A DNA stretch of 56,569 bases, from assembly GCA_039961635.1 (NCBI GenBank), contig JABRWB010000021.1, positions 1-56,569 on the forward strand, read 5' to 3'. Below, piece after piece: positions 3,724 to 41,893 of the stretch. Made by a program: the position numbers and the translations under genes. This DNA is from a bacterium. GTDB taxonomy: Bacteria; 4484-113; JAGGVC01. Position 1 is the first letter of the stretch; every line of letters starts with the position of its first letter. The notes beneath the pieces were generated by a model. That model worked only from the letters and a program-made list of their open reading frames with translations. It did no database searches and was not told where the DNA came from.

Positions 3724-4929
3724 CTACTGCCTCCCCGCCGAAGCTTCGATTACGATGGCCGCGTCCAGCTCTTTGATCGTGTAATCTGGTCCAGGGTTGA
3801 CTTTAACGTCGAGATTTTCCACGCCATAGGTCAGCTCCTTTTTCCCGGCCGCCTCGAACTGCTGCTTGATAAACGCATCGATCGAGGTCGGATCGGCGCC
3901 GAGTACATCCTCCAGCGCCATGCCGCGCTCCCGGCCGATCACCCCAATCAGAATATCTCCGCGGGTCTCCATCAAGTGCTTCGCCAGTTCGGAAAACGGC
4001 CTGCCGACAAACTCCCGGGGGATTTTTTTCTGCCAAAGAGCATGGCCAAACTCCGGCGACAGAAGCTCGCGGACGAGCGAGGGCATCCCCGGAAAAAGCG
4101 CTCCGGCCGTCAACAGATATCCCGAATGCTTGCCGATAAGGACTATCTCTTCCGCGTTGGCTGCCCTCAGCGAACTCATATTCTCTTCGGAATGAAGCTC
4201 CGCGGAAATTCGCATCTTTCGGTTCTGCCTTTTGAGGGCGAGCGTCGCGCGAAGCACGCGCTGGTCCGATTGGGATGCGCCTTCCGCACTATAGTCCGCC
4301 AGGATCAACGCGTAGCTGGCCTTGGCAGCGTTCGCGCGCGTAAGCACGCTTTCCGAGCAAAAGTCGCCGCGGACGAACTTCATGTTCAGATCGGGAAAGC
4401 TGTAAAAGTGCTCGTTCGCCAACTCCTCCTCGATATCCGCAATGAGCACGACCTGAAGCTGAGAGGATGTTTTGGCTTTTCGAAGGTTCTCCAGTACGTT
4501 GTCGATGTGGGGATTCCACCCGCATACAATCAAATGATCGGTCAAGGTAATCTCCTCCAGCCCTTTGGCTTCCTTTATGCGCTTTGAGACGAACGCCGTG
4601 GTTACCGTGGCTCCCAGAAGCGGGCCGACGAGAATCATGAATACGAGCATTTCGGCCATAGCGACAATACGCCCGCCTACGGTCAGAGGGTACTTGTCCC
4701 CGTAGCCCACGGTACAGGCCGTGACTATGGCCCACCAGACGCCGTCCCACAGACTTGCGTACTGCTCAGGATTCTCCCGATATTCGAAAGCGAAGACCAG
4801 CGCCGCGGCGGCGAAAAGAATGACAAAAATAACAAGTATGAATCGGTGAAGGCCTTCCTCCACGGCAAGCCGGAGGAAGTTGCGCGCGGATCTCAAAATG
4901 CTGCCGTTCAGGCGTTGCCAGTGCTGCAT
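3724..4929 (-). CDS. Two-TM potassium channel with RCK/TrkA-N domain
   Basis: This 401-residue membrane protein has a first transmembrane helix near residues 28-50, a pore helix, and the K+ selectivity filter TVGYGD in 'TACTVGYGDKYPL' (near 73-85). A second helix follows (IVAMAEMLVFMILVGPLLGA), then a cytoplasmic RCK/TrkA-N Rossmann domain starting 'HLIVCGWNPHIDNVLENL'. The C-terminal third contains a TrkA-C-like region. The architecture matches MthK-type ligand-gated K+ channels. It heads an operon with a separate cyclic-nucleotide-binding protein and a BMP-family lipoprotein. The ATG at 4929 lacks a Shine-Dalgarno but has TAAACT 9 bases upstream. Confidence 0.93.
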   Translation of the reverse strand: MQHWQRLNGSILRSARNFLRLAVEEGLHRFILVIFVILFAAAALVFAFEYRENPEQYASLWDGVWWAIVTACTVGYGDKYPLTVGGRIVAMAEMLVFMILVGPLLGATVTTAFVSKRIKEAKGLEEITLTDHLIVCGWNPHIDNVLENLRKAKTSSQLQVVLIADIEEELANEHFYSFPDLNMKFVRGDFCSESVLTRANAAKASYALILADYSAEGASQSDQRVLRATLALKRQNRKMRISAELHSEENMSSLRAANAEEIVLIGKHSGYLLTAGALFPGMPSLVRELLSPEFGHALWQKKIPREFVGRPFSELAKHLMETRGDILIGVIGRERGMALEDVLGADPTSIDAFIKQQFEAAGKKELTYGVENLDVKVNPGPDYTIKELDAAIVIEASAGRQ

Positions 4930-4938
4930 GGCCGTATG

Positions 4939-4944
4939 AGTTTA
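4939..4944 (-). promoter_or_regulatory. -10 element next to start codon (leaderless type)
   Basis: On the minus strand, TAAACT ends 9 bases before the ATG at 4929 of the K+ channel gene. Hexamer and spacing are the same as for the gene at 1646. Confidence 0.5.
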
Positions 4945-5047
4945 GATTGGCGGGGTGCCAAAGTCAACGAGGGGCAAACCTTAAACCGCCTCGTCGCAAA
5001 GGCCTGTGGCAGAAATGCGCCATCGTGCCAAAAGATACGTTTTAGGG

Positions 5048-5053
5048 TAAAAT
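5048..5053 (+). promoter_or_regulatory. -10 element next to start codon (leaderless type)
   Basis: TAAAAT ends 8 bases before ATG 5062, with no ribosome binding site between them. This supports 5062 over the upstream in-frame start at 4846. Confidence 0.55.
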
Positions 5054-5061
5054 ACGGCGTC

Positions 5062-5865
5062 ATGAAAAATATCCTTGTTTCAATCGCGCTCATTTCGGTT
5101 ATTGCGCTCGCCGCGTGCAACGGCGGCGGAAAAGACGGCACGCCCCCGCCGGACAACAACGGGGTTGTGACAATCAATGACCTGATCGTGAATCCCGCCC
5201 AGCCGGGCGCGACATCGCTCGTCGAAATCACGCTCGACGCGGCGGCCACAGTAACACCCATCGAGCAGAGGACGAAAACCTACACCGCGACGGGCGGCAC
5301 GCTGTACGCCGAGCAGCCGGATTTCACGCTGGTGCTCCGCAACTCCGCACAGGCCGGCCCGGCCACGCTTTCCACGAAGCAAAACAAAATCTACTGGATC
5401 ACTCCCGCGACGCCGGTACAGGTGACGCTTACGGTTGAAGTGGGGGGCAAAACGCACTCCAAGGTCGTTTCGATCGGCAATTCGCTTGCGACCATGAGCA
5501 TCGAGGAGCAGGGATCGAACAAGGTCGTCACGGTTTCGGTGAACGGCGTCAGCGACCTGTTTCAGGCCGCGTTCCGAGTGAATTACCAGACGAGCAAGTA
5601 CACGGCCGTTTCGGTTGAGAAGGGCGACTTTCTCGGCTCCGGGGCGCTATTTATCGGCCTGCCCGACAAACTGGTCGGCTCGGTGCCGGTGTCGATTTCG
5701 CGCAAACGAGGCGAAGGCGGCTCGAACGGCAACGGCGTATTGGCAAGAATCATCTTCGCACCCAAGACCACATCTGGAGTGAGGGATACTTCGGCGTCGG
5801 CCGCGTTCGATTTTGAATACGTCGAGCTGAGGGATTCAAGCGGGGATCTAATCGGCCTTGATTAA
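5062..5865 (+). CDS. Cohesin-like domain lipoprotein
   Basis: This 267-residue protein begins with a signal peptide MKNILVSIALISVIALAAC, ending in a lipobox (LAAC, Cys about 19), so it is anchored outside the cytoplasm. An N-terminal beta-rich, Ig-like region ('TINDLIVNPAQPGATSLVEI') precedes a cohesin-like C-terminal domain. That domain contains 'VTVSVNGVSDLFQAAFRVNY', then a 'VSVEKGDFLG' element and a 'GNGVLARIIFAP' strand, which resemble the strand order of type I cohesins. Other proteins in this window carry dockerin-type modules, so a cohesin-dockerin partnership is possible but unproven. The start is ATG 5062 because the signal peptide begins there. The longer frame from 4846 would run through the divergent channel promoter. 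Confidence 0.72.
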   Translation: MKNILVSIALISVIALAACNGGGKDGTPPPDNNGVVTINDLIVNPAQPGATSLVEITLDAAATVTPIEQRTKTYTATGGTLYAEQPDFTLVLRNSAQAGPATLSTKQNKIYWITPATPVQVTLTVEVGGKTHSKVVSIGNSLATMSIEEQGSNKVVTVSVNGVSDLFQAAFRVNYQTSKYTAVSVEKGDFLGSGALFIGLPDKLVGSVPVSISRKRGEGGSNGNGVLARIIFAPKTTSGVRDTSASAAFDFEYVELRDSSGDLIGLD

Positions 5866-15259: not shown

Positions 15260-15658
15260 GTGTTTTGCGCGACCGAAGGATTCCTGATTCGCGTTGCCGA
15301 CCTCGCACCGGCGCGCGATTTCTACGGTCGAATCCTGCAGCTTCCCCTGCTCGTGGACACGCCCGAGCGCCTCGTTTTTCACATCCCCGACGGGCGCATT
15401 TACGTGGAGTACGATCCCGATGCAACCGCCCCCGCCGGAAGCGGCGCCCGCCCGATTCTTATGGTCGAGGACATAGACTCCGCGGTGTTTCACTTCAGCC
15501 GGTGCGGAGTGCGTTTCCTTTCCGGCATCGAGAGCCGCGGCGGGCTGTGGATCTGCGAAATCGCGGATCCGTACGGAAACGCGCTTGCCGTCGCGCAGTC
15601 GAACGAGGTGAGAGAAAAAAAAAGCCCCGGATTTCTCCGGGGCCTAAAGTCATCCTAG
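15260..15658 (+). CDS. VOC (glyoxalase/bleomycin-resistance fold) protein
   Basis: This 132-residue cytoplasmic protein has the VOC pattern: 'FLIRVADLAPARDFYGRILQ' opens the first beta-alpha-beta-beta-beta module with a conserved 'FY...L'. The second half contains 'SAVFHFSRCGVRFL' and ends 'GGLWICEIADPYGNALAVAQ', the typical 'f.DPdGn.le..q' strand with its metal-ligand position replaced or shifted. VOC proteins include glyoxalases, dioxygenases and antibiotic-binding proteins, and the substrate cannot be deduced. The last 15 or so codons (EKKSPGFLRGL) are formed by the terminator of the convergent downstream gene. Confidence 0.78.
   Translation: MFCATEGFLIRVADLAPARDFYGRILQLPLLVDTPERLVFHIPDGRIYVEYDPDATAPAGSGARPILMVEDIDSAVFHFSRCGVRFLSGIESRGGLWICEIADPYGNALAVAQSNEVREKKSPGFLRGLKSS
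15615..15643 (-). terminator. Rho-independent terminator of the Cys-type dockerin/TlpA lipoprotein gene
   Basis: On the minus strand an 8-bp stem (15624-15631 with 15636-15643) with a 4-base loop is followed by nine T residues. It lies 33 bases after the stop at 15676, inside the 3' coding end of the convergent VOC gene. Confidence 0.9.
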
Positions 15659-15675: not shown

Positions 15676-17853
15676 CTAGTTTAGTAAATCCTCAATCCGC
15701 GGTCCCCACTCCTCTAATGCGACTTCCGGCGGATCACTTGCTCCGAGAATTGAGCCCGGAACGAACCACCGCGGAATCCCGTCGCGGTCAATCAGGTAGG
15801 ATTGAGGCAGAAAGTTGCCTGTTCCCTGATTGGCAAACAGCTCCTTGATCTTGTAGAAGGTTCCAGAGCTTGCGGCGTAGTTGTCGTCGTCCCACCAGTT
15901 CTCCTCGAACTTCTCTTCGGGATGGCCGTCGAGCCATGCCTTTGCCGAATTGTAACCGCCTGGATTGAACAACCCGTTAGGCACGAAGCCAAGGCCCTGA
16001 TATCCCTGAGACTGGTAAGTATCGTGCAACAAAATTAAGCCCGGCATTTCAACGTGGCACCACCCGCAGGTGTCACCCCAGAAATTGAACCATGTAACCT
16101 TGCCCTGCCTCCACGGCTCGTAAGGCGTATCGTTGCCACTCAAAAGCGACTTCTCCACAAACGCGGGGAAGTAGCCTACGCGGCCGTTCTTGTCAAGCAA
16201 CGCCTTTGTGGTGGTAACAATTATTTCGAATGTCGCGACCTGCTGATCCGATGTTGCGGGAACATCGACCGTACAGGTTGCGGTTATGTGGTTTGCTGCA
16301 CTGGGAGTTAGCGTCACAGCCGAGGAAGCGGTATTACCACCGAATGTGCCGGAGCCCGCAGTGATCGCCCATGTATAAGCCAACTCGCTTGGGTATTCCG
16401 CGTCGAGATTGGTTTTAACCGAGAGGTTAATCGTGTCGCTGGGCGAACCGTAATAAAGCGTCGTTGCCGGATTGAGCGTGATTGTCTGCGCAGAACCGGC
16501 GTCGTTTGTAATCGTGATATCTCTTGTCTGAAGCTTATCCGTAATCTCCAGAGCCGGAATCGGCGGCACGTCGTACCACGCCTGTGCGTTCACGATGTCG
16601 GACAGCGGGCCGTGCTGCTCCATCTGCGTCGCCGAATAGTTGATCGCCCAGATGGCGAAGTGGTGCGTCACGCCTTTCGCGCAATCCCCGATGTCCACGC
16701 TGGTCACATCGTTCGCGATGTTCTCGAAGCCCGGACATGCGACGAGGTTGCTTCCGTCGCCGCCGACCTGCCACCACAGCTTGTAGTGGTCAACCGTCGA
16801 GGGGTCGAGGCCTGTCCAGCTCACGCGGATGACGCCCTCGCCGAAGCTCTGGTCGCCCTGCGCGGTGAGGCCGGTAACCTTCGCGGGCGGATCCACGGGA
16901 ACCGGGCCGCCGCCGGTGCCGGCGATGTTGCTGATGATGCCCACGCTGCCGTCCGGGCCGACGGGCGCCGTGCTGAACGATTCTTCGTCTTCCGGAGCAA
17001 GCGTGTAGTTCACGGTGTAAGTCACCGGCCTGTCGCCGGGCACGACAGCCGGGCGGTCGACCGTGTAAGGCGAGCCGGGGTTCGACTCGTTCGGTATCAT
17101 CGCCCAGGAAGTGCCGCGCAGGACGTTCACCTTGTAGCCCGCGATAGCGTTCTGGAAGTTCAGCGCGATCTGGGTTATGTCGGAGACGCCGATTTCGCCG
17201 TTCTTGTCGCCGTCCACAAGCGAGAGGATCTGGCCGCTGGCCACTCCGAAGTTGAGCGCGATCGGGGTGATGTCCGCCACGCCTACTTCGCCGTTGTTGT
17301 CGTAGTCGCCGACATTTCGTTCGGTCCACGTCAACGTCGCCTGGCCGTCGACAATTATCGCGGCGAGATTGGTCACCTTGTTGTCGGGACTCGTCGGCGC
17401 GAGCCCGCTGACGCTGCGTCCCGCGTAGGCGCGGCCCTCGAAGTGCGCCCTGGCGACGACTCCACTGGCGGTTCCCACGGGATCGCCCGCGTTGCGAATG
17501 CGGCTGGTGCCGATATCGACGCGGCCCGGCCGGTCGGTGACCGCCAGGTCCACGCTCTCGCCCAGCGCGCCGGCGAACGTCACGGCGCCCGGCGTGTAGC
17601 GCGTCGCGTCGTAGACGATGCCGAACAGGAACTCGTCCGCCCGGACTTCGCCCCGCGTGGATACGGTCAAGTCAACGCCGCCCGCGGAGGGAGACGCCGC
17701 TAGATCGAGGGGCAGCGCCGAGCCGTCCCTTAGGTTGACGAGAGAAAAGCCGCCGTCCGCCTCGGGCGAAGGAGCCTGCATAGAGCCGCCCCTGCTGCAG
17801 GCGAACGCAGCGGCAAGCGATAGGATAAGTACGACCAACAATGCGTTTCTCAC
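15676..17853 (-). CDS. Lipoprotein with cohesin-like, dockerin, FN3/Ig-like and TlpA-like thioredoxin domains (Cys form)
   Basis: This 725-residue surface lipoprotein has a signal peptide with lipobox AFAC (Cys19). Residues about 45-160 form a cohesin-like beta-sandwich ('EFLFGIVYDATRYTPGAVTF'). Residues about 178-235 hold two dockerin-type calcium loops, DYDNNGEVGVAD and DGDKNGEIGVSD, each followed by 'ITxIALNF'. FN3-like ('VIRVSWTGLDPSTVDHYKLW') and Ig-like segments follow. The last 150 residues are a TlpA/ResA-like thioredoxin domain: 'VTWFNFWGDTCGWCHVEMPG' with C596/C599, and 'LPQSYLIDRDG' carrying the expected cis-Pro loop. The start is GTG 17853, because AAGGAG lies 7 bases upstream and the signal peptide begins there. 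It is a tandem paralog of the selenoprotein at 18215-20275. A role in extracytoplasmic thiol redox chemistry on a scaffold is inferred. Confidence 0.82.
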   Translation of the reverse strand: MRNALLVVLILSLAAAFACSRGGSMQAPSPEADGGFSLVNLRDGSALPLDLAASPSAGGVDLTVSTRGEVRADEFLFGIVYDATRYTPGAVTFAGALGESVDLAVTDRPGRVDIGTSRIRNAGDPVGTASGVVARAHFEGRAYAGRSVSGLAPTSPDNKVTNLAAIIVDGQATLTWTERNVGDYDNNGEVGVADITPIALNFGVASGQILSLVDGDKNGEIGVSDITQIALNFQNAIAGYKVNVLRGTSWAMIPNESNPGSPYTVDRPAVVPGDRPVTYTVNYTLAPEDEESFSTAPVGPDGSVGIISNIAGTGGGPVPVDPPAKVTGLTAQGDQSFGEGVIRVSWTGLDPSTVDHYKLWWQVGGDGSNLVACPGFENIANDVTSVDIGDCAKGVTHHFAIWAINYSATQMEQHGPLSDIVNAQAWYDVPPIPALEITDKLQTRDITITNDAGSAQTITLNPATTLYYGSPSDTINLSVKTNLDAEYPSELAYTWAITAGSGTFGGNTASSAVTLTPSAANHITATCTVDVPATSDQQVATFEIIVTTTKALLDKNGRVGYFPAFVEKSLLSGNDTPYEPWRQGKVTWFNFWGDTCGWCHVEMPGLILLHDTYQSQGYQGLGFVPNGLFNPGGYNSAKAWLDGHPEEKFEENWWDDDNYAASSGTFYKIKELFANQGTGNFLPQSYLIDRDGIPRWFVPGSILGASDPPEVALEEWGPRIEDLLN

Positions 17854-18161
17854 TGCTTCACTCCTTGGTTTTGATTGCCAAGGGGCCCGCCCCCGGGGCA
17901 CCCGATAAAGGTACACATTAAAGTAAGGCATATACAGAATACCAGTTTTCCGAATGCAATGCAAGAGATCAGGTCGAAAAACGGCTTGAAATCAGAAAAA
18001 GTGCCTATGGAAGTGACCGGCAGGTCAGCGGACGGCATGCGGGTATTGCGGGGGGGGCGGATTGCCATAAACCGGGGCAAAGCGCGCGTTGCGAACGGCC
18101 ATCCACTCCTGCGGATCAACGTTTACTAATCATTTCCCCGATAAATTACTTAAATAATTCC
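17854..18161. other. Intergenic region between the two paralogous lipoprotein genes
   Basis: This region of about 300 bases must contain the promoter of the Cys-type paralog and its AAGGAG ribosome binding site (17860-17865). It also holds a GC-rich run near 17881-17900 and a G-run (18051-18057). I see no coding potential, no clear -10/-35 pair and no RNA family that I recognise. Confidence 0.5.
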
Positions 18162-18190
18162 AAAAAAAAGGACGCCCCGAAGGGCGTCCT
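18162..18190 (-). terminator. Rho-independent terminator of the selenoprotein gene
   Basis: On the minus strand a perfect 9-bp stem (18169-18177 with 18182-18190) with a TTCG loop is followed by a T run ending at 18162. It starts 25 bases after the TAA at 18215-18217. No comparable terminator follows the internal TGA at 18542-18544, which supports translation through that TGA. Confidence 0.93.
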
Positions 18191-18214
18191 TAGATTTGCT
18201 TGACGAATCTGGTT

Positions 18215-20275
18215 TTACTGGAAATTCTCGCCTAGCAATTCCTCGATTGCGGCGCGGAATTCCGCGTCGGGAGGATTGCCGCCGAGTCTTGCCTTGCGGC
18301 AAGTGCCATCGCGATCTAGCAAGTAGGTCTGCGGAATTCCGGTGGAACCGCCCACCCAATCGTTGTATGCATTCAGCACACCCGACGCGAAATACAAATC
18401 CGTCCATGTGTACGAATTCGTTTCGTAGAAATTCCAGTTCTGGTCCTTGCTGTCCTCGCAAACTTCGATCTGGTAGTAGCCCTGCGCGTTGTAATCGTCA
18501 TACCAAGCTTGAAAAGTGGGGAACTCCCCGACGCAGTAACCTCACCAGTAGCTCCAGAAGTTGAGCAGGATTACCTTTTGATCGTCCGCCCATTCCGCGA
18601 ACTGGTGGTTGGGTCCATGCACGTAGCTTTCGCCGGTGAACAACCAGTTGGGGCCGAGGACGAAAACATTGCTGTTGTTAAAGTTGCCGCCTACAGGCGC
18701 CATCGTCGTTCCGATTATAGATGCGCTTGCAGTATGCTGGTGCAACGTATCGTCAACCGTCACCTCGAATGTGGCGGTTGTTTTGCCCGTCACACCGGCG
18801 CTTATCGAGCGCGAAGTGGAAGAGCCGATAATCGAGCCGTTGCCCGACTTGACCGTCCACGTGAAGGTCAGGTACTGCTCGAATTCGGTTCCGTCATGCG
18901 AAGTTTGCACCGAGATGTTCGCTGTTTCGGACGGCATAATCGTTGTCCTGTCGCGCGTGAATCCCGTAATCGTGAAATCCGGAATCGGCGGGACGTCATA
19001 CCATGCCTGCGCGCTTACGATGTCGGACAGCGGGCCGTGCTGCTCAATCTGGTTTTCGTTGAAGTTGCAAGCCCATATTGCGAACCAGTATGTCACTCCG
19101 CGTTCGCAGTCCGGAATATCCACCGTCGTCGTGCTTGCGGAAATGTTGTCAAATCCCGGGCAAGCCACCAACTGGGTGCCGTCGCCGCCTTCCTGCCACC
19201 ACAGCTTGTAGTGGTCGAGGTAAGGATCGGTGCTTGCATCCCAGTTGAGGCGGATGACGCCCTCGCCGTACGATTCATCGCCGGCCGCGCTCATTCCTGT
19301 GACCTTTGGAGGAATCGGGATCGGCTCCGGGCCGCCGCCTGTAGTGTTTGATGCAACGCCGACAGTGCCGTTCGGACAAATCGGCATGGTGTTGAAGCTT
19401 TCCTCATCCGTGGGTTCCAAAGTGTAATTGAACGTGTAAGTAACCGGCCGGTCATTGGGAACAATTGTAGGACGATCCACCGTCCACTGCGAGCCGGGAT
19501 TGACAGGATTAGGAATTGCGACAAAAGATGCGCCGCGCTTGACGTTTACCCGGTATCCGGCGATCGCGTTTTGATAATGCGTGGCAATCGGCGTGATATC
19601 CGATACGCCGATTTCGCCGTTTTTGTCACCGTCAACAAGCGATAGAATTTGGCCAGATGCCACGCCGTAGTTGATCGCGATTGGCGTGATATCCGAGACG
19701 CCGACTTCGCCGTTGTTGTCGTAGTCACCGCAGTTCTTTTCGGTCCATGACAATGTTGCTTGACCGTCCACGACAACCGCAGCAAGATTAACTTTGTTTT
19801 CCGGCCCAAGCGGAGCTTGGCTTGCACGTCTGCGGACGCAGGATTCGCGCGCGAAGTGGATACGAACGATGTCGCCGCGAACGCTGATTCCTGCATCTTC
19901 TCTGTTCCGAATACGGCTTGTGCCCACGTCAACGCATCCGGGCACGTCGGTGATCGCGATATCCACGCTCTTGCCCATTGCGCCAGTGAATTCGACGTTC
20001 TTCGGGTTGAACCTCGAGGCGTCGTAATTCAACTTGAAGAAGATTTCATTTGTCGTCACCTCCGATGTGGAAACGGTGACAACGACTCCCGACGACGATT
20101 CCTCCACGCCCGCGGCAAGCGGCAGCTTGGACGGCGATCCGCTTTGATCAATTAAGAACGCAAGCGAGCCTCCGCCGTAACTCATATTGACGTTACGTTC
20201 GGAGCCGCCGCAGGCCGTGAGTGCAAGGAAAAGCACTATAAAGACCCACAATGCAACGATACGCAATTCCTTCAC
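18215..20275 (-). CDS. Selenoprotein: cohesin-like/dockerin/TlpA-like thioredoxin lipoprotein with Sec at the redox centre
   Basis: Read with the TGA at 18544-18542 as selenocysteine, this is a 686-residue lipoprotein (lipobox LTAC, Cys22). It has the same domain order as its neighbour: cohesin-like region, dockerin loops DYDNNGEVGVSD and DGDKNGEIGVSD (near 181-230), FN3-like ('VIRLNWDASTDPYLDHYKLW') and Ig-like domains. The C-terminal thioredoxin domain reads 'VILLNFWSYW-U-GYCVGEFP', so Sec578 and Cys581 align exactly with C596/C599 (CGWC) of the paralog. The frame stays open for 108 codons after the TGA with clear TlpA features ('STGIPQTYLLDRDG'). It stops at TAA 18215, 25 bases before a terminator. 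A SECIS-like hairpin follows the TGA. Conventional gene calling would truncate it at 18542 and miss the active domain. The start GTG 20275 has AAGGA upstream. The alternative explanation is a Cys-to-stop mutation or sequencing error. Confidence 0.85.
18516..18544 (-). promoter_or_regulatory. Candidate bacterial SECIS element with its UGA codon
   Basis: The UGA occupies 18544-18542. On the minus strand a GGGG/CCCC stem (18529-18526 with 18521-18518) carries the tetraloop AGUU. It is extended below by a GU/AC pair (18532-18531 with 18517-18516) across one bulged C. The loop begins 17 nt after the UGA and has G as its second base. This fits the published bacterial SECIS pattern (loop 16-37 nt downstream, G among its first two bases). 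Binding by SelB is inferred. Confidence 0.72.
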
Positions 20276-38731: not shown

Positions 38732-41700
38732 TTACGGCTTGGGTCCGCCCCAGACGAAAATAAGGTTCGCTTCGCTTTCGTCGAATGCCGAAATGCCGGA
38801 ATAGCCGCCGGGATCAATATCTAGCGAATTGTACATTCCAACATAGTGCAGCCCCAGCACCGTGGATTTGAGCCATTCGGTTCCGTCAAATTCCACAAAA
38901 TCCAAGTCGTGATCCGCAATTTCGTAATACGCAATGCGGGGCAAGCCTGCTTGGTCAAAGGCAAGGGAAACATACGCCGTTACGTCGGATGTATCCGGGA
39001 CCGACGAAACCGACCATTCGCTTCCATCAAACGTCGCCAATGAAATAAGCGGAATAGAAGCAGTCACGTAGGCTATTGCCGGGAATCCGTTTCCGTCCAG
39101 CGCGATGCTTGAGTACATTCCGGTTTCGGGAGTAATGTCCACCTCGCTGAACTCCCATCCCGAACCGGGATTCGTGGCGATTTTCTGGATTTGATCGATT
39201 GGCGCGCGGTATGCAATCCATGGTTGATCGTTTGCGTCGATGATCAAGTCGGTATGGTCAGCCGAGCCGAGGCCGGACAACAACGGATCGGTGTTCCAGC
39301 TCGCGCCGTCGAAATACGAGTAATACAAAGCAGAACCTATTGTATTGCAGTGCGCGATCGCCGGATAATCGTTCGAGTCGAGCGCAATCGAAGCGTAATC
39401 GCCCCCATTGTCCGTCACCTCTGTGACTTCCCAATCAGTACCGTTATAAGATGCAACTTCCAGACCGGAAGGCGCAAACTTGTAGGCGATGACGGGATTG
39501 CCGTTTCGATCGAGCGCAAGCGTGGTGAACGTGCCGGCATTGGATTTTGCAGTAGGTATATTTTCCACCGTCCAAACCCCGCCGTCGTAACGCGCAAATT
39601 GAGGCCTGGTATGAGTTTGCGAATAATACGCAATCGAAGGCCTGCCCGCGGAATCAAACTTCATCGAAGAATAACGGCCGACCTCAAGATTATCCGGCTC
39701 GTTGCCATCGACGTATTGCTGTCTCCATAACAGCGAGCCATCCACGGGAGGACTCAAAGCACCCACGCCGATCGCGTTTTGATTTGCAACGGCGTATTGA
39801 TAATCCACCCGAACTTCGGCGGAATTGTCCGTAAAATTGTTTCCGAAAATCGGGCTTCCAGGCACCGGGGCGAAGTTGCCAGTCGTTCCGGTTCTTCTGA
39901 AAATGTGCACTACCATTCCGCTTGAGTCCCAACTCAACTTCAAATTGTCGGTGCCCTTGAAAGTGGCCGTAAGATTCGTCGGTGGTGCAAGATAAGCGTA
40001 ACCCGAATCGATGTTCGAGTACTCACCTTCCCCCTCCGTACTCACGGCGCAAACCTTGTACCAATATGTCCCGAAATCCGGAATAGTGGTGTCGTCGAAC
40101 GAAGTATCGAACAGATTCCCGCCGACCCTTTGATATGTACCGTCGATCGCGTCGGCTCTGTACAGGTGGTAATTCAGCGCGCCGGGAATATCGTTCCAAC
40201 CAACCGAAACCTTGTCCTGATAAAGCCCGTCGGTCGCGGCGATGCTTGGCGCGGGCAGACCGACAAACCCCCTGTCGGAATCCGATGGAACCGCCTGTCC
40301 CTTGGCATACAGCGCGATCACCCTGTACCACCAAAATTCTCCGGCGGCAGCGGAAGTGTCGTCGAAATATGGCTCTGAAGTGGGACTTCCCGCAACCTGC
40401 GAGAATGGCCCGTTTGAATTGTCGGCGCGTTCCACGCGGTATCCCGCAGCCTCCGGAATGCCCGTCCAGGTAATCCGGATCCAGCCCGAAAAAGACCCGT
40501 CGCTTGCCGTCACGGTCTCAACTCTCGGAAAACTGATATAGCCGCTTTCCGCCGGGGAAGGATCGCTGGTTCCGTACTGGTTGTACGCCGTGACCTTGTA
40601 CCAGTGGACGTCTCCGTCCGGGATGGAAGTATCCTCCAATTGAAGCTGATCCGTAGGGCTGCCGGGAATTGGAACGAACGTCCCCGCGGCGTTCTTGCTT
40701 CTCGTTACGATATAACCGTCCGCTCGTGCCGCGGCATCCCAGGTCAGAACTACCTTGTCCGTATATGTACCCTTGGAGGCCGTCAAATTCTGGGGAATAT
40801 CCGGCGGCTGAAGCGAACCCTGGGGAAACACGTCCAAAGTAAAATCCCTGGAAACAACGGTGTCTCCGCGACTGACGGTCAAATTGCAGTCATATGAGCC
40901 CACAGAACCGATTGTCGCTTCCGGGCTTGCTTCTTCCGATGTGTTCGGGTCCGCTCCTCCTCCAAAGTTCCACGAATACGTCAGAGGATCCGCTCCGAAT
41001 ACATTGGCCGCGAAGGTGACCAAGTCGCCCTCTTCCACGGTGCGTGGGCTGATTACCCCGATGTTGATATCGAGGCATTGCACTCCGTTGCTAGCAGTTC
41101 CCTCCGCGGAATCCGAATCAAGCGGCACGACAAAGTAGAAGCTGTTTTCGTCGGGCTGATCCACCACCGCGGAATACTGGACGTAAGGCTGCGTTTTGTC
41201 GTCGAATTCGGTTGTATCTCTAGGGGCGGTCAAGTAAAGCGACGCCTCCGCGACATCGGAAGAAAGGCCTACCATCACATTGTAGCCCGAAAGTGTTTCG
41301 AGAAAATGAATTGCTATTGGAGTAATGTCCGATACGCCGATCTCGCCGTTTCCGTCCGCGTCGATCCGGCGCAGGAATTCCGCCTCGGTTACCGACCGGT
41401 TGAAATTCAGTGCGATCGGAGTAATGTCCGCCACTCCGACTTCGCCGTCGGCGTTGGTATCCCCGACGAGCTTTTCAGACCAAGTCAGCTCGACCGCTCC
41501 GGAGACGTAACTGGCACTTAGATCGGTCACCTTTGCGCTGTCTCCCGTCGGTGCTTTGTTAACCAACCTCTCCAAGCCTCGCGCCCTAAGTTTGGACATA
41601 AGTTCGTTCTTCAGCATTTCGAATACGGCAGGATCAGCGCCCGCGGGAGCGGAATATGCCTCGATGTCATTCAATACAGCTTCAATTTCCATTTCGGCCG

Positions 41701-41830
41701 GCGTGTAGGAACCGGCAACGGGACGGCCTCCCGAAAATGACTTTCCAGAGCCGCCAGAGCATCCCGCAAGCCATAATGCGGCCAGCAAGCAGCATGGAAT
41801 CACGGCAAATAAGGTGCCAAATGAGCGCAT
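38732..41830 (-). CDS. Dockerin/PKD/FN3/beta-propeller surface lipoprotein
   Basis: This 1032-residue lipoprotein has a lipobox WLAGC (Cys24). Residues about 122-185 carry two dockerin-type calcium loops, DTNADGEVGVAD and DADGNGEIGVSD, each followed by 'ITPIAxxF' as in the two TlpA-type lipoproteins. A PKD-like domain follows ('SPRTVEEGDLVTFAANVFGA', 'PLTYSWNFGGGADPNTSEEA'), then four or five FN3 domains ('YTDKVVLTWDAAARADGYIV', 'FSGWIRITWTGIPEAAGYRV', 'YQDKVSVGWNDIPGALNYHL'). The last 290 residues contain seven repeats of about 45 residues built on 'S(I/L)ALDxxGxPxIAY', suggesting a seven-bladed propeller. ATG 41830 is preferred over TTG 41857. Likely function: adhesion or scaffold binding outside the cell. 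Confidence 0.82.
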   Translation of the reverse strand: MRSFGTLFAVIPCCLLAALWLAGCSGGSGKSFSGGRPVAGSYTPAEMEIEAVLNDIEAYSAPAGADPAVFEMLKNELMSKLRARGLERLVNKAPTGDSAKVTDLSASYVSGAVELTWSEKLVGDTNADGEVGVADITPIALNFNRSVTEAEFLRRIDADGNGEIGVSDITPIAIHFLETLSGYNVMVGLSSDVAEASLYLTAPRDTTEFDDKTQPYVQYSAVVDQPDENSFYFVVPLDSDSAEGTASNGVQCLDINIGVISPRTVEEGDLVTFAANVFGADPLTYSWNFGGGADPNTSEEASPEATIGSVGSYDCNLTVSRGDTVVSRDFTLDVFPQGSLQPPDIPQNLTASKGTYTDKVVLTWDAAARADGYIVTRSKNAAGTFVPIPGSPTDQLQLEDTSIPDGDVHWYKVTAYNQYGTSDPSPAESGYISFPRVETVTASDGSFSGWIRITWTGIPEAAGYRVERADNSNGPFSQVAGSPTSEPYFDDTSAAAGEFWWYRVIALYAKGQAVPSDSDRGFVGLPAPSIAATDGLYQDKVSVGWNDIPGALNYHLYRADAIDGTYQRVGGNLFDTSFDDTTIPDFGTYWYKVCAVSTEGEGEYSNIDSGYAYLAPPTNLTATFKGTDNLKLSWDSSGMVVHIFRRTGTTGNFAPVPGSPIFGNNFTDNSAEVRVDYQYAVANQNAIGVGALSPPVDGSLLWRQQYVDGNEPDNLEVGRYSSMKFDSAGRPSIAYYSQTHTRPQFARYDGGVWTVENIPTAKSNAGTFTTLALDRNGNPVIAYKFAPSGLEVASYNGTDWEVTEVTDNGGDYASIALDSNDYPAIAHCNTIGSALYYSYFDGASWNTDPLLSGLGSADHTDLIIDANDQPWIAYRAPIDQIQKIATNPGSGWEFSEVDITPETGMYSSIALDGNGFPAIAYVTASIPLISLATFDGSEWSVSSVPDTSDVTAYVSLAFDQAGLPRIAYYEIADHDLDFVEFDGTEWLKSTVLGLHYVGMYNSLDIDPGGYSGISAFDESEANLIFVWGGPKP

Positions 41831-41893
41831 GTTTATCACCGCCTTTATTTTATCCAATTTCCGGCGAACATGGAAACGCCCTGCGTCTACAAG

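Follow-up and report, generated by a model that had tools for sequence, protein, structure and literature searches.

Two adjacent genes in the window (the whole stretch of 56,569 nucleotides analysed here) encode what we regard, with a probability of roughly 0.6, as duplicated, lipid-anchored thiol(selenol)-disulfide oxidoreductases held on a calcium-stabilised stalk, which would be re-reduced via a CcdA/DsbD-type transporter and would have envelope lipoproteins as their likely substrates. The sequence-only reading had described the pair as tandem Cys/Sec paralogs with lipoboxes, and both points were confirmed: the two open reading frames were found on the minus strand, the Sec gene with an in-frame TGA (18215-20275) being followed after 361 bases by the Cys gene (15676-17853), and each product carries a lipobox, relaxed in the Cys protein. 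The two proteins share 52% identity. The features of the gene pair are:

18215..20275, minus strand: Sec protein, a lipoprotein of 686 aa, with GTG start, TAA stop and one TGA read through
20210..20275, minus strand: signal peptide and lipobox of the Sec protein (LTAC, Cys22), from the sequence
18168..18191, minus strand: terminator of the Sec gene, just past the TAA stop
15676..17853, minus strand: Cys protein, a lipoprotein of 725 aa, with GTG start
17797..17853, minus strand: signal peptide and relaxed lipobox of the Cys protein (AFAC, Cys19), from the sequence
15622..15645, minus strand: terminator of the Cys gene

Since an intrinsic terminator-like site lies behind each gene (18191-18168 for Sec and 15645-15622 for Cys), the two genes are probably separate transcription units, and a tight operon is unlikely. 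The flanking genes, among them those for a glyoxalase-type protein and a polysaccharide deacetylase, are unremarkable, and none of them points to disulfide or cytochrome work, which counts against the reading given above.

Two features of the Sec gene bear on the reading of its TGA:

18542..18544, minus strand: in-frame TGA, very probably selenocysteine, residue 578, from the frame and related genes
18513..18532, minus strand: candidate SECIS hairpin downstream of the TGA, with its loop over GAG-TTC codons

The TGA very probably specifies selenocysteine, because selA, selB, selD and tRNA-Sec are present in the genome (451, 249, 340 and 66.3 bits, respectively), the frame ends just before a terminator, U and C share the position among relatives, and an over-stable hairpin follows it in Sec genes but not in Cys genes. 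The TGA takes the place of the first Cys of a thioredoxin-type motif (WUGYC) and aligns with Cys homologues; at the active site, same-class relatives have either U (TUPYC, WUTYC, TUGSC, SUGTC and TUGGC) or C (GCQGC, WCGPC and WCYYC), and the window Cys protein has TCGWC. For the hairpin, the folding stability of the RNA 10-29 bases past the TGA was compared with synonymous recodings in 16 Cys genes and in 11 Sec genes, three of the latter encoding short TlpA-type lipoproteins. The Sec genes were over-stable (mean z -2.0, Fisher 1.5e-8), and no over-stability was seen at the same place in the Cys genes (mean z -0.46, Fisher 0.12). The window Sec gene by itself is not individually significant (P=0.145), the signal lying in the family of 11, and the hairpin has no Rfam match. 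Plain translation with table 11 ends at 18542-18544, as expected if the TGA were a true stop and the Sec gene either a broken copy or the source of a 577-residue headless stalk. Such a reading is highly improbable, given that the frame continues, open and conserved, through 108 further codons and closes with a TAA about 23 bases ahead of the terminator, that several genomes have TGA at the same site and that the whole Sec machinery is present. The genome's own selD (L114, G000:C47:1308-2291) also contains one TGA that is read through, as does selD in seven related genomes.

With selenocysteine at residue 578, the C-terminal part of the Sec protein is a redox head that the Cys protein shares:

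18218..18604, minus strand: TlpA/ResA-type (AhpC-TSA) domain with WUGYC, Sec protein, from Pfam and PDB relatives
15679..16131, minus strand: TlpA-type domain, Cys protein, with the CGWC codons at 16057-16068

The TlpA-like redox domain expected at the C-terminus was recovered, as PF00578 matched all 11 family members (4.7e-9 in the Sec protein; 0.0013 in the Cys protein, at 19.1 bits, under the Pfam cut-off) and the solved structures in the PDB that come closest to the Sec head are those of DsbE, ResA and StoA-type proteins. In the head alignment, the first C/U is invariant and the second C nearly so, and E-x-P, Pro and D-x-D-G are conserved; judged from this alignment, the conserved residues are those of the TlpA/ResA group. 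PF00578 takes in peroxiredoxins too, and selenium-dependent peroxiredoxins (TxxU) are known, so that the head might be a peroxidase- or peroxiredoxin-like detoxifying enzyme instead of a disulfide reductase or isomerase; we consider this improbable, as its CxxC/UxxC and E-x-P motifs are unlike the peroxiredoxin TxxC and its closest relatives of solved structure belong to the TlpA/ResA/DsbE group.

A head of this sort is a known kind of selenoprotein. UxxC selenoproteins of PF00578 and cd02966 have already been listed (PMC13188914, PMC9312934), and the Prx-like or thiol-disulfide isomerase-like members resemble the present head in their TlpA-like fold, in having Sec first in UxxC and in their common Cys homologues. 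The passages of these reviews that were consulted mention no fusion to cohesin, dockerin or FN3 domains, whereas the head described here is the tip of a lipoprotein of 700-800 aa. With ResA, TlpA, StoA and DsbE (CcmG) the head has in common the fold, the CxxC..E-x-P arrangement, a predicted place on the exported side of the membrane and the expected CcdA/DsbD electron supply. The known proteins, however, are short, single-domain and Cys-based, whereas the window proteins are long and multidomain, and their role in cytochrome maturation is only putative. Related heads also occur in other forms: one family copy (L070, 2809-4644, minus strand; copy G004b) has an unusual active site, CUSFPHS, which is one residue longer and lacks the second Cys, and in related genomes short TlpA-type lipoproteins (L073, L076 and L078) stand in tandem, one Sec copy beside Cys copies, the Sec motifs of these arrays being WUGAC, WUGYC and WUGPC.

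The remainder of each protein forms a stalk composed of the following parts:

19829..20131, minus strand: cohesin-fold domain, Sec protein, from the AF2 model and PDB matches, with PF00963 in relatives
19337..19822, minus strand: FN3 domain split by a dockerin-like insert, Sec protein, from structural alignment across the insert and a spliced profile
19571..19738, minus strand: dockerin-like calcium-loop pair (56 aa) in the FN3 B-C loop, Sec protein, from loop motifs and PDB dockerin profile matches
18986..19318, minus strand: second FN3 domain, Sec protein, from AF2 (pLDDT 85-91) and FN3 fold matches
18701..18976, minus strand: Ig-like domain, Sec protein, from AF2 strands, at lower confidence
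16918..17757, minus strand: cohesin-fold and FN3-dockerin module, Cys protein, from 63% identity to the modelled module
17152..17319, minus strand: dockerin-like insert, Cys protein

When Pfam was run on the two window proteins alone, no cohesin, dockerin or fn3 domain was found, and the head was the sole convincing match. Among the 11 family members, Pfam found fn3 in 7 (best 6.4e-10), cohesin PF00963 in 4 (best 1.9e-7, and 3.5e-8 in a further search) and Dockerin_1 in 3 (best 0.0038, and 0.001 in a further search). The full-length AF2 model of the Sec protein had a poor N-terminus (mean pLDDT 55), and the N-terminal module (residues 35-313) was therefore folded apart, which gave a model with a pLDDT of 83.6; FN3 tandems topped the fold matches of the full-length model and, together with fn3 in family members, uphold the FN3 and Ig-like domains first read from the sequence. 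The top Foldseek match of the module model was the cohesin-FN3 module 2w1n (1.1e-4), and residues 15-115 of this model aligned to cohesins (Z 9.4, rmsd 2.6 over 98 residues, 24% identity to 6kgc), which, with PF00963 in relatives, agrees with the cohesin-like sandwich proposed earlier.

The two dockerin calcium loops were likewise supported, with a corrected location. Both DYDNNGEVGVSD and DGDKNGEIGVSD fit DxDxNGxVxxxD and are followed by helices, in keeping with the DxNxDGxxxxxD-type loops of type I dockerins, and a family profile with the dockerin segment kept found cellulosomal dockerins as its best PDB matches (4fl4, 1.7e-4). Residues 117-279 of the module model aligned as a single FN3 domain with the dockerin pair mid-way (Z 9.7, rmsd 2.6 over 92 residues). 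A 16-protein profile without the dockerin segment, run with no permuted-sequence control, returned FN3 domains in the top eight PDB places (best 8.7e-8), with a match that spans the junction; single spliced sequences, with the insert removed, had no clear Pfam fn3 match (best 0.046-0.069). Because the FN3 alignment spans the insert and the spliced profile matches FN3 across the junction, the B-C loop of the first FN3 domain is the most likely site of the dockerin pair, as judged from one model and one profile. Structure prediction for the Sec protein hence agreed with the sequence-only reading on the cohesin and FN3 folds and departed from it on the domain layout, placing the dockerin inside FN3 instead. 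The module of Clostridium perfringens GH84C (2w1n) has a cohesin followed by FN3, as in the window stalk, but carries no redox head, unlike the window proteins, and we know of no nested dockerin in it. Noncellulosomal cohesin and dockerin modules also occur in ANME archaea (PMC9012536), where, as here, both are found without sign of a cellulosome; in the present proteins, by contrast, cohesin and dockerin belong to a single lipoprotein chain, with the dockerin FN3-nested.

The stalk is widely used in the host genome. The Sec protein matches 75 places there. Nearly all of these matches involve parts of residues 16-450 and share the dockerin region as their core, and among them stalk and redox head are joined only in the window pair. 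Most of the 21 stalk-bearing proteins inspected in this genome have a lipobox, and the C-termini of ten that were scanned include multihaem cytochrome c7/c3, PQQ-like propeller, PKD, Ig-like and fn3 domains. Since about 70 places match, on lipoproteins with unrelated C-termini, the cohesin/FN3-dockerin module looks like a generic stalk. Two lipoproteins of the same genome (L130, 1033-4179, minus strand; L135, 925-3288, plus strand) combine the dockerin module with multihaem cytochrome c7/c3, and a lipoprotein of 1041 aa in the window (38735-41893, minus strand) combines the FN3-nested dockerin module with PKD and fn3 domains. In a search of genome contigs, the Sec protein alone matched nothing, and an alignment-based search found the family. 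Across 192 genomes (E <= 1e-25), the full architecture was confined to its own class, in the GTDB 4484-113 lineage, and outside this class four genomes matched the Sec family, in the FN3 stretch only. The host is an uncultured, deep-branching bacterium, and, to our knowledge, its phylum-level lineage has no cultured member.

The pair had been taken from the sequence for redox enzymes displayed on, or part of, an extracellular scaffold. The exported lipoprotein with a redox head and the cohesin- and dockerin-type parts stood; scaffold membership gained no support beyond the presence of cohesin and dockerin domains, the stalk being generic and the insensitive PF00963 search having found single-cohesin proteins only. 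In such a scaffold, dockerins would dock proteins onto a cohesin-bearing scaffold, uniting redox heads and other enzymes in one extracellular complex. Dockerin-like loops, cohesin folds and single-cohesin proteins do exist, one of the latter being encoded in the window itself, and in relatives two dockerin-bearing proteins (L101, 5956-7632, plus strand; L104, 5578-7092, plus strand) end in an apparent second, more classical cohesin-like domain. We nevertheless hold such a complex to be unlikely, because the dockerin lies inside FN3, each protein already has its own cohesin and lipid anchor, and the PF00963 search, which is insensitive and misses the window proteins' own cohesin, found single-cohesin proteins and no multi-cohesin scaffoldin. 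The single-cohesin protein of the window (4846-5862, plus strand) is lipoprotein-like and without dockerin, its one C-terminal cohesin (5506-5802) scores 26.2 bits with PF00963, above the cut-off, and it is a candidate partner for dockerins. A further, distinctly speculative and unlikely picture is that FN3-nested dockerins would bind cohesins in trans and thereby polymerise dozens of this lineage's lipoproteins into a calcium-dependent surface layer with Sec redox heads and multihaem cytochromes as built-in parts for electron transfer or redox control.

For the stalked oxidoreductases that we favour, the calcium-stabilised N-terminal part would be a general stalk that sets the head at a distance from the membrane. 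Within the cell envelope, the head may use its Sec or Cys to attack disulfides in exported proteins; the mixed bond would be resolved by the second Cys, and the CcdA/DsbD-type transporter of this genome could then re-reduce the head. The stalk-bearing envelope lipoproteins would be the likely substrates, among them c-type cytochromes with the same stalk. The genome encodes a DsbD_TM protein (one 432-aa open reading frame, with a Trx-type match in the same frame), a CcsA/ResC-type cytochrome assembly protein (PF01578) and an Omp85 outer-membrane protein; it also holds other TlpA-type proteins able to serve cytochrome maturation, which counts against the proposed role.

The sequence-only reading had proposed that the Cys and Sec variants would serve different potentials or substrates. 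The history of the pair was followed in a family tree built from the C-terminal 320 residues of 13 members, TGA being treated as C. On this tree the window Sec and Cys proteins group as sisters (100/97), and 5 changes of Sec/Cys state are needed, of which supported branches force at least 4. One genome (G005) has three full-length copies in tandem, two with Sec and one with Cys, together with another Sec-bearing fragment. Because Sec and Cys interchange at least 4 times, two long-separated roles are disfavoured, and local duplication with repeated Sec/Cys exchange appears to fit the sequences better than two ancient isoforms with distinct roles.

No relevant account of a dockerin-thioredoxin lipoprotein or of a cohesin/dockerin selenoprotein was found in the open-access papers searched, and the search for the domain order, which returned the full architecture from its own class only, accords with its having first been called unusual. 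Both ingredients are known; their fusion and the FN3-nested dockerin appear undescribed. The pair thus presents a selenoprotein architecture for which no earlier description was found in those papers, and suggests that dockerins are carried in a new way, within an FN3 loop, throughout a phylum-level lineage. In addition, a family with several Sec/Cys swaps in tandem copies provides a natural set of comparisons for learning what an exported redox enzyme gains from Sec.
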